From: a virus | IMG/VR virus record: IMGVR_UViG_3300034374_002473 | Coordinates: 1 to 20,205 of that record | Direction: 5' to 3' (one strand) | DNA length: 20,205 nucleotides | Part shown: positions 6,983-18,230 of the stretch, in pieces | Layout: the number at the start of each line of letters is the position of its first letter | Position numbering within the stretch: position 1 is the first letter of the stretch | Program-made: the position numbers and the translations under genes | Notes under the pieces: model-generated | The model's database searches: none | What the model was told of the DNA's origin: nothing | What the model saw: the letters and a program-made list of their open reading frames with translations, nothing else

Positions 6983-7921
6983 ATGGCATTAGATTTAACG
7001 GCACTAAGTGCATACACAACTGAACACGCGGAGGAGTTTTTCGCTAAATCAGTAATGAAATCAAAGACAGCGGGATTAATGAACGTATTGTCTAACTTTA
7101 AACCAGGTACTCATAAGTTACCAGATTTTTCTCACGATTACGATTTATTTCAAGACGGGTCTTCTTGTGGTTGGAACGCATCAGGAGATTTAACAATCGC
7201 TCAAAGATCAATTACAGTAGAATCTTTAAAGATTAATACTTCTTACTGTATGAGAGATTTAGAGGCTAAATTTACTAGACAAATCATGCCTCAAGGTCAA
7301 GAGTACGATGGTCTTGAGCCAATCGCGGCTGGTCTTTTAGGAGAGCTTGATAAAGCAGTAGGTAAAATGGTAGAGTTAACTTTATGGAACGGTAACAAAG
7401 CTACAGCACCTAACGCGATATCTTCTTATGATTTAGTAAACGGACTTAATAAAGTTATTGCTGACGAAACTGGTAACCTTGCTTATGAAGGTGCTACAGG
7501 TGCATTAACTACTTCTAATATTATCGGAGCTGTTGAGGCTTTATATGATGGTTTAGGTGTAGATGCTTATTCTACTATCAATACTGACCAATGGGTAGTA
7601 TTAATGGGAGATGACAAGACGAAAATGTACGAAAGAGCGTATAGAGATACTCACGGAGCAGTAGTTTACAATCAAGGATTCGAGAAGAGATATGTAGATG
7701 GTACTAACATCGAAATCGTAGGAGTTCCTGGATTGAACGGTACTGATAAATTAGTACTTGCTAAAAGAGATAACTTGATCTTAGCAGTTGATGTAGACGG
7801 AGAAGAAATGGACTTTAAGGTATTCATGGATCAATACGAAGAGAATGTATTAGTTAAGGCTAGATTCGCTTTAGGTATTCAGATTCATTTCCCATCTGAG
7901 GTAGCAGTAGATAACTATTAA
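6983..7921 (+). CDS. Major capsid protein
   Basis: This 312-residue protein follows the head protease directly, the classic position of the capsid gene, and its length suits an HK97-fold capsid subunit. The N-terminus is helical (about 1-45). The middle has long helical and beta blocks, including a Trp-Asn-Gly-Asn segment near residue 135. The C-terminus has the pattern of strands with KARFALGIQIHFPSE that is usual in capsid proteins of this type. No delta domain precedes it; scaffolding is probably supplied by the protease C-terminus. The leader is A-rich (TTTAAAAA before ATG) without a Shine-Dalgarno. A hairpin terminator immediately follows the stop, which may set capsid dosage relative to downstream genes. 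The exact fold is inferred from position and length. Confidence 0.88.
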   Translation: MALDLTALSAYTTEHAEEFFAKSVMKSKTAGLMNVLSNFKPGTHKLPDFSHDYDLFQDGSSCGWNASGDLTIAQRSITVESLKINTSYCMRDLEAKFTRQIMPQGQEYDGLEPIAAGLLGELDKAVGKMVELTLWNGNKATAPNAISSYDLVNGLNKVIADETGNLAYEGATGALTTSNIIGAVEALYDGLGVDAYSTINTDQWVVLMGDDKTKMYERAYRDTHGAVVYNQGFEKRYVDGTNIEIVGVPGLNGTDKLVLAKRDNLILAVDVDGEEMDFKVFMDQYEENVLVKARFALGIQIHFPSEVAVDNY

Positions 7922-7963: not shown

Positions 7964-8518
7964 ATGGCAGAATGTTTAATAACGGCAGGTTGGGTAGGCC
8001 CAAGTTGTGATGATACTTTTAACGTTCCAGGTATTCAAAAAGATGAGATTTACTTTGCTAACAAGTCAGAGATTTCCGCATACTCTGAATCAGTTACTGG
8101 AGAAATCGACGGTATTACTTTTGATACATACAAAGGATTTTATAAAGTAGTGGTACATAAAGACACAGCTTCTTGGAGTGAGGAGTTACAAGTAGGTACA
8201 AACTCAGGTTATTTTTATAATCAAACTTTTTCTTTTAGAACTATTGATACTTCAACTTCTATTAGAAATGCTATCAATAACATGGTAGGTACTTCTTTAG
8301 TGGCTTTATTCAAGGATAAGAATGACAAATACTATGTTTTAGGAGAAACTGACGGCCTAGAATTGTCAGAGAATGCTAAGAACTCAGGAGCTGCTCCAGG
8401 AGATGATACAGGAGATGTATTAACTTTCTCAGGAGTAAATAGAGGAAAAGCTAAAAAATTCTTTAAAACAGATGCAGCAACAACAGAAACAACGGTAGCG
8501 GGTTACGTAGTTGGATAG
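7964..8518 (+). CDS. Probable major tail tube protein
   Basis: This 184-residue beta-rich protein lies after the capsid gene. It opens with two cysteines (C4 and C15), then a strand pattern, a segment YNQTFSFR near residue 90, a helix with the block NNMVGTSLVALFKDKNDKYYVLG (written here as NNMVGTSLVALF then KDKNDKYYVLG, about 108-129), and GLELSEN followed by a Gly-rich loop. I recognise this arrangement from tail tube proteins of Bacteroidetes phages, where it forms the stacked rings of the tube. It has its own terminators on both sides, as expected for a protein made in many copies. An alternative is a capsid decoration protein. It is far from the tape measure, which lies upstream of the head genes. 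Confidence 0.68.
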   Translation: MAECLITAGWVGPSCDDTFNVPGIQKDEIYFANKSEISAYSESVTGEIDGITFDTYKGFYKVVVHKDTASWSEELQVGTNSGYFYNQTFSFRTIDTSTSIRNAINNMVGTSLVALFKDKNDKYYVLGETDGLELSENAKNSGAAPGDDTGDVLTFSGVNRGKAKKFFKTDAATTETTVAGYVVG

Positions 8519-8590: not shown

Positions 8591-8824
8591 ATGACAAGAA
8601 AGAAAAGACAAAGCGATACGGTAAAAAAAGCAATCGCGGAAAGTAATCAAGAGGTTTATACAGACTTAGAGCCTAATAAAGACCTTAAATGGAAATTTAA
8701 AAACCCTAATAGAAAAGTTTTAATAGGTAGATATACTTATACACAAGAGGACTTAGATAAAAATCAAAAATTAGCAGAATACTTAATAGATAAAGGTTTA
8801 AGTGATTTGCTATGTTACGAGTAA
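8591..8824 (+). CDS. Small charged protein of unknown function
   Basis: This 77-residue protein has a Lys/Arg-rich start (RKKRQ at 3-7) and a compact second half with VLIGRYTYTQEDL followed by a helix and LIDKG. It starts 20 bases after the T run of the preceding terminator, in an A-rich leader (AATAAAAAAAT before the ATG). Its stop lies 13 bases inside the next gene. Its place after the tail tube gene could suit a tail assembly or head-completion factor, but I do not recognise the family and no slippery frameshift site is evident. Confidence 0.65.
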   Translation: MTRKKRQSDTVKKAIAESNQEVYTDLEPNKDLKWKFKNPNRKVLIGRYTYTQEDLDKNQKLAEYLIDKGLSDLLCYE

Positions 8825-9489
8825 GACAAATCTACTATAAGAATACTCAATTACATTTTAATATGAGGGATACTAACGACTTTATCCCTCTTTTTAACCC
8901 TACATCAAATCATCTTTTAGAATCAGGGGTAATAAAAAAAATGTATGAGGAACAAGATTATAATGATTGCGAGTATTACGGTGTAGTATCTCATAAGTTT
9001 TATAAGAAAATCCATAAAACAAGCTCATACGTCAAGTATCAAATAGAAAACTACCAGACTAAACCCGATGTATTTAGCTTTTTTAAAAAGAATCCTAAAC
9101 TTAATTTAGTTAATCAAGGTAATACGTGGCATAGTCTTTTTAGTGATATTTACGTACGACTAGCTAAAGTATTAGAATGGGATATAGATATTACAAACCC
9201 TAGACATAAAATGGAGGGTATCTATTCTAATCATTGGATAGCTAAGAGTGAGGTTTACGAAGAATACTGCAAGAACTATTTAATACCTGTAATAAACGCG
9301 TTAGAAAGCGATAAAAAGCTAAATAGAATGGTTTGGAGCGATTCTAATTACATATCACACGATAGACTAAACGCTGAACAATGTAAAAAGATATTTAATC
9401 GTCCTTATTATACTTATCATTGCTTTATTTTAGAAAGATTATTCCCTATATTTTGCTATTTGGAAGAAAAAACAGTTTGCCATATATGA
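8812..9489 (+). CDS. Possible sugar transferase, first gene of glycan cassette
   Basis: This 225-residue protein starts 13 bases inside the preceding gene and shares ATGA with the glycosyltransferase-like gene after it. Visible blocks are YYGVVSHKFYKKI (about 55-67), NHWIAKSEVYEEY (about 146-158) and FILERLFPIF near the end. These recall proteins in capsule and phage sugar loci, where a conserved Glu-Arg-Leu-Phe lies near the C-terminus. No DxD motif is clear and I cannot assign a family with certainty. Position in the cassette supports a role in glycan transfer. ATG 8863 is another possible start, but the residues before it read as continuous protein. Confidence 0.6.
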   Translation: MLRVRQIYYKNTQLHFNMRDTNDFIPLFNPTSNHLLESGVIKKMYEEQDYNDCEYYGVVSHKFYKKIHKTSSYVKYQIENYQTKPDVFSFFKKNPKLNLVNQGNTWHSLFSDIYVRLAKVLEWDIDITNPRHKMEGIYSNHWIAKSEVYEEYCKNYLIPVINALESDKKLNRMVWSDSNYISHDRLNAEQCKKIFNRPYYTYHCFILERLFPIFCYLEEKTVCHI

Positions 9490-10187
9490 AGTTTACTATA
9501 TTAGTTCCCGTATGGGGTAGATATGACACGTTAAAGTTGTTTAATGACTGTGTTATAAGATTACAAGAAGAGTATGATATTAACGTAGTTGCGGTAGGTA
9601 GTAGTGAAGCAGATAAAAAAGTATGCGAATCTTACGGTTATCATTATACTCAAGCTCCAAACAAACCATTAGGAGGTAAGTTAAATAATGGTTTAAAGGT
9701 TTGTAAGGATTTAGATAGCGATGCTTTTATAATGTTAGGTAGTGATGATATACTATCTAGTAACTTGTTAAATTATTATGCTCAACAAATTAATAAAGGG
9801 TTTGATTTTGTAGGCTTTTTAGATTGTTACTTTTATGATTTAAACTCTAAAAATATGATCTATTGGAAAGGTTATAGAGGTGAGCGATCAGGAGAACCTA
9901 TAGGAGCGTGGAGATGCTTATCTAGAGGGTTATTAGAGTCATTAAATTGGGAAGCTTGGGATAATCAACATCACTCTATAGATTATACTATGTGGAATAA
10001 GCTTAAAAACGTTAAAAAGCACGTTACTACATCAAAGAATAAGTTTTTAATAGTTGATCTAAAAAACGAAGATAACGTTACTAAATTTCGTAAATTCGAT
10101 AACAGTGAAATAGTACACGCTAAAACTATATTTAACCAATATTTACCTAAAATAGAAACGCTTAAAATATTAGAATATGGAAAGTAA
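9486..10187 (+). CDS. Family 2-like glycosyltransferase
   Basis: This 233-residue protein begins with a Rossmann-type nucleotide-sugar start, FTILVPVWGRYDTLK (residues 3-17), followed by a strand NVVAVGSS. It has GGKLNNGL at 63-70 and the metal-binding position GSDDIL at 85-90, equivalent to DxD of GT-A enzymes. It also has a later His/Asp-rich stretch near 160-167. It probably transfers a sugar from a nucleotide donor; donor and acceptor are unknown. ATG 9486 is chosen over the earlier ATG 9420, because it gives the standard ATGA overlap with the upstream stop and starts at the core strand. The next gene overlaps it by 11 bases. Confidence 0.82.
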   Translation: MKFTILVPVWGRYDTLKLFNDCVIRLQEEYDINVVAVGSSEADKKVCESYGYHYTQAPNKPLGGKLNNGLKVCKDLDSDAFIMLGSDDILSSNLLNYYAQQINKGFDFVGFLDCYFYDLNSKNMIYWKGYRGERSGEPIGAWRCLSRGLLESLNWEAWDNQHHSIDYTMWNKLKNVKKHVTTSKNKFLIVDLKNEDNVTKFRKFDNSEIVHAKTIFNQYLPKIETLKILEYGK

Positions 10188-10791
10188 TATTTACCATAAC
10201 GGAGTTCATAATACGGCTATAGTACACCCTAGTGTAATAATAGGAGAAGGAACTACTGTAGGAGCTTATACAGTAATTAATGAAGGAGTAGTAATAGGAA
10301 AAAACAATATTATAGGTTCTCATATAGTTATAGGTGGTGATGGAGAAATAAGAGGAGCTAAAAAGTTTGAAGGTAAAATAAAAATAGGTGATAACAATTT
10401 AATAAATCATCATGTAACTATTGATAAGCCTTTAAAAGGTTATACTATAATAGGTAATGATAATTTCATTATGACTAAATCGCATATCGGTCACGATGTA
10501 GTAATAAGTAATAATGTAACTATATCAAGTGGAGCTAACATTGGAGGTCATACACAGATTCATAACTACGCTACAATAGGATTAAACGCTGAGATACACC
10601 AAAGAAAAATTATAGGACAAGGCTCTATGGTTGGAATGGGATCAAGTATTACTAAAAATGTTTATCCGTTTATTAAAGTAGTAGGAGTAAATAAAGTAAT
10701 AGGTTATAACAAAAAGAAGATAGCAGATTTAGATTTATCTATGCGTGATGTAATGATATTAGGTAGAGAATTTGAAAAAGATTTTTTATGA
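10177..10791 (+). CDS. LpxA-like left-handed beta-helix acyltransferase
   Basis: This 204-residue protein is made of hexapeptide repeats ([IV]-G-x4 pattern) from about residue 12 to 170, building a left-handed beta helix. It resembles UDP-GlcNAc acyltransferase (LpxA), including the catalytic motif HIGHD at 103-107 (His106 in the position of E. coli His125), a GGDGEIRG block at 53-60 and IGDNNLINHHVTI at 70-82. The helical C-terminal domain of LpxA (about 262 residues in all) is cut to some 35 residues. In phage context it more likely acylates a sugar nucleotide or glycan than serves lipid A synthesis. It overlaps both flanking genes, so it is part of the translated cassette. Confidence 0.82.
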   Translation: MESNIYHNGVHNTAIVHPSVIIGEGTTVGAYTVINEGVVIGKNNIIGSHIVIGGDGEIRGAKKFEGKIKIGDNNLINHHVTIDKPLKGYTIIGNDNFIMTKSHIGHDVVISNNVTISSGANIGGHTQIHNYATIGLNAEIHQRKIIGQGSMVGMGSSITKNVYPFIKVVGVNKVIGYNKKKIADLDLSMRDVMILGREFEKDFL

Positions 10792-11549
10792 AGTTAGCGG
10801 TATGTTATACGGTGTTTAATGGTATTGAGTTGTTAGAAGATGCTATCGAATCAGTAAAAAGCGAAGTAGACGAGATTATTATTAGTTATCAATTAGTAAG
10901 TAACTACGGTAATATAAGCGATGAGTTTTTATATTGGAAAGATAAGAACCCACAATACAATTACATAGAGTTTAATCCAGATTTAAGCGTAGACTCTAAG
11001 ACTAATGAAAAAAACAAGCATCAAGGATTGATAAATAAAGCTCGTGAGTTAGGGTGTACTCATTTCTTTTTAAGTGCTACGGATCATCTATATGTAACCA
11101 AAGAGGTACAATACGCTAAAAAACAAGTAGAAAGTAACGGTTATTTAACAACTTATACTAAAATGGTAACGTATTTCAAAGAGAATAATCTTTGTTTAAT
11201 GCCTTACGAGAGTTATTATATGCCTTTTATTTGCTCTGTTAGGGTTAATATGGGTAATAAAGCTCCGGTAGTAGTTGATCCGTCTTGTATGTTTAAACCT
11301 TTTAACCCTTCTAGGGTGTTTGATGCTAATGAGGTTTTAATGCATCATTTTAGTTGGTTAAGATATGATATAGATTCCAAGTTAGATAATGCAGCTGCTA
11401 GGGTTAATTTTTTAGATAAAATTGATTTATTTAAAGAAAAGTATCATAATTTTAAATTAGGAGATGATTTTCCTTATTATCCTAATCATAAGATAATAGA
11501 GTGTAAACCTCTTTTTAAATTGCGTACTTTTTATAAAAACAAACAATAA
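10788..11549 (+). CDS. Glycosyltransferase-like protein, second
   Basis: This 253-residue protein shares ATGA with the acyltransferase gene. It starts with a Rossmann-type strand and loop (KLAVCYTVFNGIELLEDAI, residues 2-20), then VDEIIISY. It contains NKARELGCTHFFLSATDHLY at 83-102, where the TDH at 98-100 takes the place of the DxD metal site, and later a Ser/Pro/Tyr-rich region and His-rich HHFSWLRYD. It resembles GT-A family enzymes and differs enough from the first transferase to use a different donor or acceptor. Twenty-five bases separate it from the portal gene, ending the overlap chain. The exact family is uncertain. Confidence 0.72.
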   Translation: MKLAVCYTVFNGIELLEDAIESVKSEVDEIIISYQLVSNYGNISDEFLYWKDKNPQYNYIEFNPDLSVDSKTNEKNKHQGLINKARELGCTHFFLSATDHLYVTKEVQYAKKQVESNGYLTTYTKMVTYFKENNLCLMPYESYYMPFICSVRVNMGNKAPVVVDPSCMFKPFNPSRVFDANEVLMHHFSWLRYDIDSKLDNAAARVNFLDKIDLFKEKYHNFKLGDDFPYYPNHKIIECKPLFKLRTFYKNKQ

Positions 11550-11574: not shown

Positions 11575-12840
11575 ATGGAAGAAAACAAGGATAAAAGTAA
11601 TATTTTCTTTGTCAATTTAACTACTGAAACTGTAGCACCTAGTATAAACACTAGACTACATAAGAAAAAAGACTGGGTTTTCTTTGGTAAAGATAACTTA
11701 TTCCCTCAGTATTTAATTGATTTAGCAGATAATTGTGCTATTCATAATGCTTTATTAGAAACTAAACATAAATTCATTCAAGGTCAAGGGTTTATATTTG
11801 ATGGAAATAGAAACCAAGTTAAGAAAGCTGAGGCTTTTGTAGAGTCTTTAGGTAAAGATTTTTTAAAGAAAACGGCTGTAGATTGTGCTTATTTTGATGG
11901 TTTTTATTGGCAAAGTATATTTGAGAGAGGTGGGAATGTAGCGAAATTAAAACATATAGACTTTTCTTATATTCGTTCGGGTAAAATGGACGAAATGGGA
12001 GAAGTAAACGAGTTCTTTTTCTCTCCTGATTGGGAGTACGCTACTACTAAAGTAAACTACAAACCAGAGGAGGAAATATACAGACCTAAGCCTATAGCAA
12101 TATGGGGTACAAACGATATTGAATTAAAACGAAAAAGAGGTCAATTAATACAAGGTAAGTTCTATAAACCTGGGAAACTATTCTATGCTGAACCTAGTTA
12201 TATAGGAGCATTAAATTATATAGAGATATCGGCACAAATAGCAGAACTACACAAGAATAATATAGATAATGGCATGGTAGGTTCTATGCATATTCATTTA
12301 TTCGAGGATTTAAGCGATGCAGGTAAACGTAAAAAAGTAGAGAAAGCAATTAACGATAAATTCGTAGGGAGTGAAAACGCGGGTAAGGTAGTTGTAACAT
12401 GGTCTACTAATCCCGATATGAAAACTCAAGTAGATGCTATTCCTGTTAATGACTCTCACGATATGTACGCTCATTTAAGTGGTAAAATAAACGAGGAGAT
12501 AGTAGCTGCTCATAGAGTACCTTTAGCTTTAGCGGGTGTTAAGGTTGCTACAGGTTTACAATCCGATCAAAGTATTAATAGAGTATCTATGGAGTATTTT
12601 CAAAATACTGTTATTAAACCTTTTCAAATGCTTATTTGTGATAAATTACAAGATGTATTAAAGTTTAACGGTATAGATGTAGAATGTAGTATTAAACCTT
12701 CTCAACCTATTGATTTATTAGCTAGTGATGAATTAATGCTTCAAACAATGACTAAAAACGAAATAAGAACTAAAGTATTAGGACTTGATGAGTTAGAGAG
12801 TATGGATAACATACAAGATAACGTACAAAAAGAAGAGTAA
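11575..12840 (+). CDS. Portal protein
   Basis: This 421-residue protein matches the portal family of Bacteroidetes phages. Near the N-terminus is FFGKDNLFPQYLIDL followed by an Asn-Cys-Ala-Ile-His block that begins a helix and FIQGQGF (about residues 37-75). The middle has a conserved crown region (YAEPSYIGALNYIEIS, about 203-218). The C-terminal part has HRVPLALAGVKVATG (about 313-327) ahead of a helix QSDQSINR. The portal forms the ring at one head vertex, through which DNA enters and leaves. It follows the glycan cassette after a 25-base gap and overlaps the spike gene by TAATG. It is unusual in being far downstream of the capsid gene. Confidence 0.9.
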   Translation: MEENKDKSNIFFVNLTTETVAPSINTRLHKKKDWVFFGKDNLFPQYLIDLADNCAIHNALLETKHKFIQGQGFIFDGNRNQVKKAEAFVESLGKDFLKKTAVDCAYFDGFYWQSIFERGGNVAKLKHIDFSYIRSGKMDEMGEVNEFFFSPDWEYATTKVNYKPEEEIYRPKPIAIWGTNDIELKRKRGQLIQGKFYKPGKLFYAEPSYIGALNYIEISAQIAELHKNNIDNGMVGSMHIHLFEDLSDAGKRKKVEKAINDKFVGSENAGKVVVTWSTNPDMKTQVDAIPVNDSHDMYAHLSGKINEEIVAAHRVPLALAGVKVATGLQSDQSINRVSMEYFQNTVIKPFQMLICDKLQDVLKFNGIDVECSIKPSQPIDLLASDELMLQTMTKNEIRTKVLGLDELESMDNIQDNVQKEE

Positions 12841-14585
12841 TGGCATTAGATTTAGGTATATTTTTAGAGGGTGCGGAAAGTACTAATAAGGTTAAGGTAT
12901 CCGATAACGATACTCAACCAGATTATTTGATTAATAAATTTACTTCTAGTGATGCATCGGTAACTATAACGGAGACTAATGACGGAGGAGTAGAAACTAT
13001 TGATTTAACAGTCGGAGGAAGTAGTGATACGAATATAGCTAATACTGACTTAACTTCGGACGGTAATAGGACTTACGACTTAAACGGTAATACTCAAACT
13101 TTTAGTAATGGAAAAGTAATATTCTCATCAACTGATAACGGTATTTTAATAAACCGTGTCACAACGGCACAAATGAACGCTATATCATCTCCATCAACCA
13201 ACGAATTAGTTTTTAATACGGACTTAGAAGGTCTTTATCGTTATGATGGTTCTAATTGGGTGGCTTTGAGTGCTGGTTATGGTGTATTTGAATTATTTTC
13301 AGAGGGAGGAAGTGGAATACCAACTTACTTTGCTACATTTGAAAGTGCATTAAATGAAACTAAAGTAGGAGATTTGCATCACACGATAAAGTTTTATGAT
13401 AACTACGAAGCTACAAGTCAAATTGATATAACTGCTACGAATGGTTATGATTTTAAGAGTTTAACGATTGATTTAAACGGTTTTAAGTTGTATAACCACC
13501 AAGCCAATGGAGATGACTTGTTGACTTTTAATTTTGAAAATAACAGCGCAGAAAAACAAGAATTAGTTATTATTAATGGGTATCTTGAAAGATTAAACGC
13601 TACGGCAAATGCCTACACTTTATACGGATATGCTACTTTTTATGGTGCTATTAAAATGTCAAATGTAACTGTGTATAATGATACTTATAATGCTGGTTAT
13701 TTATATATTTCCTCTCCTAGTAACGAATACGGATTGTTTAATGATTTAGGAGGAAGTAAGTTTATTTGTGGTGGTAATAATAATGGTATTTGGTTAAGTG
13801 GAAATTACAAGAATTTTACTGGAATATCTTTAGGAAATAGTAACGGTGTATATATACTTACTGGAAATATTACAAACTTCTATGGCGAAAGCAAAGGAAG
13901 CGGTCATGGTGTATTTATTAGTGGTGCGACAATAGCAAGTCATTTTACAGGAATCTCTAATAGCGGTATAGGTTTAATGTTAGATAATGATAATCATTCA
14001 AGACAATGCAGTCATTTTGTAGCTAGAAGTCAGAGTAATTACGCTATTAACGCTAGTTATAATAATGATAAATTAAGTCATTTTGACGCTTATTCTGCGT
14101 CAGGTATTTATGCGGCGGGTTTTAACAATTCAGTCAAATGTTCTTTTGGCGAAATAGTAGCAGGTAGTGGAATTGGAGCTTTTGTTCTTGGAAGTGAGTT
14201 AAGTAACTGTAATATAACTTCCTTGTCAGGGAATTACGCTTTAATAGTAAGAGAAAATAATAAATTTACTAATTGCACATTTACAGCTGAATCTGGAATG
14301 GGTGCTGATATTATTAATTTTGGGGGTGTTAATAACTCCAAGTTCAGTAACTGTTCTTTTATTTCCGATTACAATAACGCATTAGGTCACGCTTTAGACG
14401 TTGATAGTTTAGGAGGAGCTAGTGTTTATCTTATGAATTGCACTTTTTCAGTAGTTAACGCATCGGCTAACGCTATTTATTCGGGTACAGCACAAACAGT
14501 TAACGCTGATAATTGTAGTCATAACCAAGTAGCTACAACGCCAGTAAACGCAAATGTAACAGTAAACTCAACGGGAGGTATATAA
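12840..14585 (+). CDS. Tail spike or fibre protein with beta-helix
   Basis: This 581-residue protein has a short virion-binding-like N-terminus (1-100), then a segment typical of Bacteroidetes phage fibres: QMNAISSPSTNELVFNTD at 111-128 followed by YRYDGSNWVAL. From about 205 to 570 it is built of repeated rungs of roughly 20-24 residues (for example near 315, 335, 357, 422, 446 and 466) with Gly, Asn and Ser turns, which suits a right-handed parallel beta helix like pectate-lyase type spikes. No catalytic motif is obvious. It probably binds, or possibly degrades, host surface glycan. It is coupled to the portal gene by TAATG. A structural rather than enzymatic role is possible. Confidence 0.82.
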   Translation: MALDLGIFLEGAESTNKVKVSDNDTQPDYLINKFTSSDASVTITETNDGGVETIDLTVGGSSDTNIANTDLTSDGNRTYDLNGNTQTFSNGKVIFSSTDNGILINRVTTAQMNAISSPSTNELVFNTDLEGLYRYDGSNWVALSAGYGVFELFSEGGSGIPTYFATFESALNETKVGDLHHTIKFYDNYEATSQIDITATNGYDFKSLTIDLNGFKLYNHQANGDDLLTFNFENNSAEKQELVIINGYLERLNATANAYTLYGYATFYGAIKMSNVTVYNDTYNAGYLYISSPSNEYGLFNDLGGSKFICGGNNNGIWLSGNYKNFTGISLGNSNGVYILTGNITNFYGESKGSGHGVFISGATIASHFTGISNSGIGLMLDNDNHSRQCSHFVARSQSNYAINASYNNDKLSHFDAYSASGIYAAGFNNSVKCSFGEIVAGSGIGAFVLGSELSNCNITSLSGNYALIVRENNKFTNCTFTAESGMGADIINFGGVNNSKFSNCSFISDYNNALGHALDVDSLGGASVYLMNCTFSVVNASANAIYSGTAQTVNADNCSHNQVATTPVNANVTVNSTGGI

Positions 14586-18199: not shown

Positions 18200-18230
18200 T
18201 TTTGTAATTAAAAAGTTGTTAGTATATTTG
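18200..18230 (+). promoter_or_regulatory. Bacteroidetes-type promoter for second operon
   Basis: TTTTG at 18200-18204 and TATATTTG at 18223-18230 are 18 bases apart and fit the known Bacteroidetes sigma consensus (TTG at -33, TAnnTTTG at -7). The first gene starts 30 bases after the -7 box, and a terminator and phased repeats lie upstream. This is the best promoter match in the window. Confidence 0.8.

Follow-up and report, generated by a model that had tools for sequence, protein, structure and literature searches.

A conserved cassette of predicted glycosyltransferase and acyltransferase genes between capsid and portal genes of a probably flavobacterial phage

Introduction

Glycosylation of phage virions by transferases of the phage itself is already known, and the gene cassette described here does not represent a new kind of system. 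According to what PMC12363180 relates of Freeman et al. (2023), mycobacteriophages encode glycosyltransferases that attach glycans to their capsid and tail tube, and capsid and tail-tube glycans are the proposed target in Che8 (gp110), Corndog (gp38) and Myrna. The transferases of Maravista are located toward the 3' genome end (PMC11256854), whereas the cassette lies between capsid and portal genes. The mycobacteriophage systems also differ from the cassette in host phylum and in enzyme set, and the cassette is known here from genes alone. To our knowledge, direct demonstrations of glycosylated particles are limited to a few phages, most of them mycobacteriophages, and we know of no acyltransferase in mycobacteriophage virion glycosylation.

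A related arrangement is found in Cellulophaga phage phi18:1 (Helsingorvirus, KC821619), a flavobacterial siphophage that has a glycosyltransferase and a methyltransferase-like gene (gp40-gp41) inside its head block; the glycosyltransferase between the head genes is conserved in its genus (PMC11946311). However, phi18:1 gp41 was not detectably related to any of the three glycosyltransferase-like proteins of the cassette (designated gA, gB and gD), nor were its capsid and portal detectably related to those of our phage. Serotype conversion systems, such as GtrABC of P22 and Oac of D3, share phage-encoded sugar transfer and acylation with the cassette, but the latter has no membrane flippase or bactoprenol transferase and is not beside an integrase in this clade.

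The virus record and its relatives

The analyzed DNA (hereafter the window) spans all 20,205 bases of the IMG/VR virus record IMGVR_UViG_3300034374_002473. A nucleotide search found no close sequenced phage for it. Homologs of its major capsid protein (positions 6983-7921, + strand; P12024S gp02, E value 1e-17), of the post-capsid protein (7964-8518, + strand; S03, 2e-22) and of the portal (25% identity, 2e-35) were detected, in the same gene order, in Nonlabens phage P12024S, which was isolated from seawater. The capsid protein was also 25% identical to the annotated major capsid protein of Microcystis phage Mea-Yong924-1. The P12024S homologs and a GC content of 32% suggest that marine flavobacteria are the likely hosts. 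One relative, G001, is complete (37 kb) and has an exact 250-base terminal repeat. Such an exact 250-base repeat was also present at the ends of record 3300014775_000501 (L018/L019), and this contig therefore most likely represents a circularly mapping genome in full length, cut inside gB.

Organization of the cassette

Four overlapping genes at positions 8812-11549 had been proposed in a preliminary description of the window, and four + strand open reading frames with exactly these outer coordinates were recovered: gA (8812-9489, 225 amino acids), gB (9486-10187, 233 amino acids), gC (10177-10791, 204 amino acids) and gD (10788-11549, 253 amino acids). They overlap end to end, including two 4-bp ATGA overlaps, and the predicted order of products is glycosyltransferase, glycosyltransferase, left-handed beta-helix acyltransferase and glycosyltransferase. 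On the left, the cassette is bordered by a small gene (8591-8824, + strand, 77 amino acids) that overlaps the start of gA; it belongs to no family and is conserved across all clade members. On the right, it is followed by the portal gene (11575-12840, + strand). Prohead protease and major capsid genes lie upstream, and all of these genes are on the + strand.

The same description had placed the cassette between tail tube and portal genes. The portal was supported by a match to phrog_11226 (E value 2.9e-39), whereas the tail tube was not established: the post-capsid gene is conserved but tail-tube-like by position only, and its PHROG matches are all of unknown function. A profile search of PDB did not support a tail-tube identity of this gene either, giving just ribosomal S5 noise and no PDB relative. 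As the genes overlap and lack an obvious promoter, the cassette is probably co-transcribed with the virion genes, and its late expression together with them is plausible. The Bacteroidota promoter motif occurred three times in the window (0.97 expected), with no occurrence in or just before the cassette. A perfect promoter of this type (TTTG-N18-TANNTTTG) was located at 18201-18230, in the gap that precedes the recombination genes, an observation that is suggestive at best.

Predicted functions of the cassette proteins

The gA gene, previously listed as a possible transferase, could be assigned more precisely. Its AF2 model (pLDDT 82, pTM 0.84) best matched the N-terminal domain of WbbM of the Klebsiella O2a O-antigen (6u4b; Z 13.7 over 186 residues, 3.1 Å), with the next group of folds below 10, and gA is predicted to be a GT-A-fold glycosyltransferase. 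This WbbM domain is classified as GT111 (PMC12269835). Although alike in fold, gA is shorter, consists of a single domain and has only 15% identity to WbbM; the DUF4422 signature was not above the cut-off, with one of 10 members reaching an E value of 0.054. Relatives of gA in BFVD were of phage and giant-virus origin. Pattern scans of bacterial and archaeal species genomes found none, although distant relatives would be missed by such scans.

The glycosyltransferase and LpxA-like classes proposed for the other genes were upheld. For gB itself, the Pfam Glyco_tranf_2_3 match (E value 0.14) was well below the cut-off; its relatives matched PF00535 with E values of 8e-5 to 6e-4 and up to 23.0 bits (cut-off 23.3), and the best match of the gB profile in PDB was TagF (E value 0.0047). 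An acidic DXD-like motif (GSDD/SDD) was kept in 12 of 13 homologs, and gB would thus appear to be a divergent GT2-like glycosyltransferase. The remaining homolog, in L013 (L013:1554-2126), is shortened to 190 amino acids and has lost the SDD motif, while gA, gC and gD of this locus appear intact; either decay or a change of function may account for this. In three other loci, gB homologs have an N-terminal extension of approximately 60 residues without a family (L054:6602-6790, L055:4682-4861 and L058:5151-5330). A relationship of this extension to the small gene at 8591 was rejected (hhalign probability 0.2%).

The gC protein matched Pfam Hexapep (5e-20) and LpxA chains in PDB (E value 2.5e-25). 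It scored 122.9 bits against the NCBIfam LpxA equivalog (cut-off 231.05) and 96.9 bits against NeuD TIGR03570 (cut-off 160.8), reaching neither cut-off. It shares with acyltransferases of the LpxA/NeuD type the left-handed beta-helix, LpxA-like HIGHD, GGH and HQ motifs, and a catalytic-type His (His106, invariant in 14 of 14 sequences). The closest family was LpxA, but gC lacks most of the long LpxA C-terminal domain. These features suggest that gC is an LpxA/NeuD-type left-handed beta-helix acyltransferase. Enzymes of this type act on lipid A and amino sugars.

The AF2 model of gD (pLDDT 93.6) had ThuS (Z 14.6, 186 amino acids), WrtF (13.4, 2.6 Å), SunS (13.3) and SpsA (12.4) as its nearest folds, and gD is predicted to be a GT-A/GT2-like glycosyltransferase. 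The Pfam GT2 model was not above the cut-off, with one of 19 members at an E value of 0.095. The residues D99-H100, K71, E74, K77, H187, R192 and K198 were invariant in 19 homologs. Both gA and gD appear to represent phage-rich glycosyltransferase families that are not recognized by Pfam.

Selection, inheritance and partial loss

All near relatives that covered the region carried gA, and most of them carried gA-gD in unchanged order. Between the window and G001, the cassette proteins were 74-84% identical, compared to 83% for the portal and 85% for the capsid protein, and dN/dS values of the cassette genes (0.10-0.14; 0.11 for gA) were similar to those of the portal and capsid genes. The gene order shared by near relatives and these dN/dS values make the cassette more than a chance arrangement; the four open reading frames are real and under purifying selection.

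One lineage of five contigs (L025-L029) had the portal gene immediately downstream of gA, without gB, gC and gD, and no gD was detected in the whole 40.5-kb record of this lineage (G005). In the portal tree, the gA-only lineage was nested within the four-gene clade (support 99/100 and 100/99), and a single loss of gB-gC-gD with retention of gA is thus the simplest explanation. Apart from this lineage, the cassette has been kept vertically. The nested lineage (gA directly before the portal in L025, L027, L028 and L029), the absence of gD from G005 and a distant locus, L052, in which gA and gD are kept without gB or gC, also fit a mixed role, in which gA by itself would serve a conserved function in the virion or the host, with gB-gC-gD as a separable addition that elongates or caps its product. 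However, the ATGA overlap of gA and gB and the similar rates of all four genes fit one pathway, and the loss lineage may simply tolerate a truncated product. We consider such a division of roles unlikely.

The slot between post-capsid and portal genes in wider relatives

The same slot was surveyed in 37 wider relatives (portal approximately 28-34% identical, near-copies included) in which the interval from the post-capsid gene to the portal was covered. Small genes only were present in 29 of these, and a phosphoesterase-like gene (judged by eye) with very large proteins in four; the other four (L130-L133, two near-identical pairs) had sugar enzymes. These loci form one group with L077 and L129. 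In this group, the sugar enzymes between the capsid/post-capsid homologs and the portal had GT2, GT7C, GT11 or GT25 domains and were accompanied by methyltransferases, all of them unrelated to gA-gD. The presence of unrelated sugar enzymes in the L077/L130-L133 clade suggests that sugar cassettes entered the slot at least twice. No sugar gene was found in this slot of P12024S, and the capsid protein of the L077 clade had no match in the phage collection that was searched. Homology between the small slot gene of the wider relatives (110-158 amino acids) and the gene at 8591 was not supported.

The view that insertions of this kind inside head genes are uncommon, which had also been put forward from the window, is consistent with the empty slot of most wider relatives, but it has to be narrowed: a second clade has a glyco-cassette at the same place, and the head genes of the cultured phage phi18:1 also enclose a glycosyltransferase. 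A broader and rather doubtful possibility is that Bacteroidota phages reserve the gap between post-capsid and portal genes as a "glyco-slot", in which complete sets of enzymes for building glycans and for decorating them (acyl, amido, sulfo and methyl) would be exchanged, the coats of related virions would become chemically different and the phage-only gD family would be common to some of the sets.

gD and its neighbors in other phages

Homologs of gD were detected in 30 viral loci and also in Lak megaphages, and its relatives were found in phages only; a pattern scan of bacterial and archaeal species genomes, which would miss distant relatives, identified none. The family is thus common to phages with unrelated virions, including siphophages, myophages and Lak megaphages. 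In the Lak megaphages, gD forms the N-terminal part of a protein of 630-680 amino acids (L134:7971-9863 and L135:7914-9962, with TAG read as Gln), and no Pfam family was found for the C-terminal part of this fusion.

In L007, L049, L051 and L054-L059, gD homologs adjoined gC-like genes, and in L007, L051, L055, L057, L058 and L059 they were beside an AsnB-like amidotransferase. Full-length asparagine-synthase-like amidotransferases were located directly before the LpxA-like gene at L055:5608-6948, L057:6108-7511 and L051:828-2195. A sulfotransferase was present beside the gD homolog in L057, and the neighbors in L048, L050 and L053 were a methyltransferase and other transferases. These neighborhoods indicate that acyl, amido, sulfo and methyl decorating enzymes travel with a phage glycosyltransferase. 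In three distant myophage-like loci (L054, L055 and L058), the gC-gD(-AsnB) module formed an island in antisense orientation, flanked by sheath and terminase genes (both named by eye in these records), and in L049 the module adjoined an integrase. The antisense islands and the integrase neighbor show that the gC-gD module is not necessarily transcribed together with virion genes.

Possible targets of the cassette

We tentatively propose, with a little less than even confidence, that a short acylated glycan is made by soluble late enzymes, with a virion protein as its most likely carrier. The gA-gD proteins would be made late, as soluble cytoplasmic enzymes, together with the head proteins. A short glycan would be built from host sugar nucleotides, with gA, gB and gD transferring sugars and gC acylating an amino-sugar nucleotide or a transferred sugar. 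The most likely acceptor would be a capsid, tail or fiber protein exposed at the virion surface, the major capsid protein being one candidate, and particles would leave the cell decorated. We infer the enzyme activities, their order of action, the identity of the sugars, co-expression and the virion as target. Transmembrane segments were not detected in gA-gD, in which no 19-residue segment had a mean hydropathy above 0.97. Sugar-nucleotide families PF00483 and PF01370 (nucleotidyltransferase and epimerase) were not found in seven records, which suggests that host sugar nucleotides would be used. No acceptor site for the glycan was found.

The preliminary description had suggested late action on either the virion or the host surface, and evidence was obtained on both sides. 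The unrelated glyco-cassette in the same slot favors the virion, as does the constancy of the cassette while a putative fiber was exchanged: between the window and L005, the cassette was 99% identical, whereas the putative fiber gene (12840-14585) was just 44% identical over an N-terminal match. Among approximately 99% identical phages (the window versus L005/L023, L004 and L012), this gene kept its N-terminus and had most of its C-terminal part exchanged; it is probably a swapped fiber or receptor-binding protein. The target of the cassette would therefore not be tied to fiber type. On the other hand, the antisense modules of the myophages, the integrase neighbor in L049 and the L013 gB homolog without SDD count against a virion target, and the occurrence of gD across unrelated virions fits a non-protein or host acceptor at least equally well.

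The main rival explanation, which we regard as possible but somewhat unlikely, is a modification of a glycan at the host surface (LPS, O-antigen or capsule) by the cassette, which would block superinfection or re-adsorption of progeny during release, in the manner of Gtr/Oac systems. The fold of gA is nearest to an O-antigen transferase (WbbM), gC is LpxA-like, and relatives of both act on LPS precursors. The spread of gD, the antisense islands and the L049 module also agree with this explanation, and lysogenic-conversion genes often lie beside an integrase. Phage genes for O-antigen glucosylation and acetylation are well known (PMC11436027). However, the cassette contains no membrane protein; GtrA/GtrB-like flippase or bactoprenol transferase genes do not adjoin it, its operon neighbors being virion genes, and no flippase or polymerase was seen in G001. 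Integrase or resolvase genes were not found in the complete 37-kb G001 and three other large records of the clade, so lysogenic conversion is unsupported in these records. The late position of the cassette and the failure of its enzymes to co-vary with the putative fiber also argue against host surface modification. Sequence alone does not decide between the virion and the host surface.

Other acceptors appear less probable. A small molecule, defense signal or host protein might be modified, the place among virion genes being incidental; the variable position of gD homologs across phage groups agrees with this, and acceptors of these enzyme folds are not readable from sequence, but two unrelated sugar cassettes in one slot argue that the place matters, and we consider this explanation quite improbable. 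Glycosylation and acylation of phage DNA bases, which would protect the genome from restriction, is very improbable. Glycan hypermodification of DNA by phage transferases is on record (Pyle 2024, as cited in PMC12619734). Nevertheless, the cassette genes are located among virion rather than DNA-metabolism genes, and the thymidylate-synthase-type base hydroxymethylase family was absent in 12 of 13 records, including the complete G001. A TET/JBP search, in which the control found no match, does not bear on this.

The virion reading thus remains the one that we favor. The cassette would be a compact acylating glycosyltransferase set with a fixed place among head genes of environmental phages, probably those of flavobacteria. 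Relatives without all or part of it, together with a clade that carries a different set at the same place, would make it possible to test by direct comparison if marine phages decorate their particles and for what reason.
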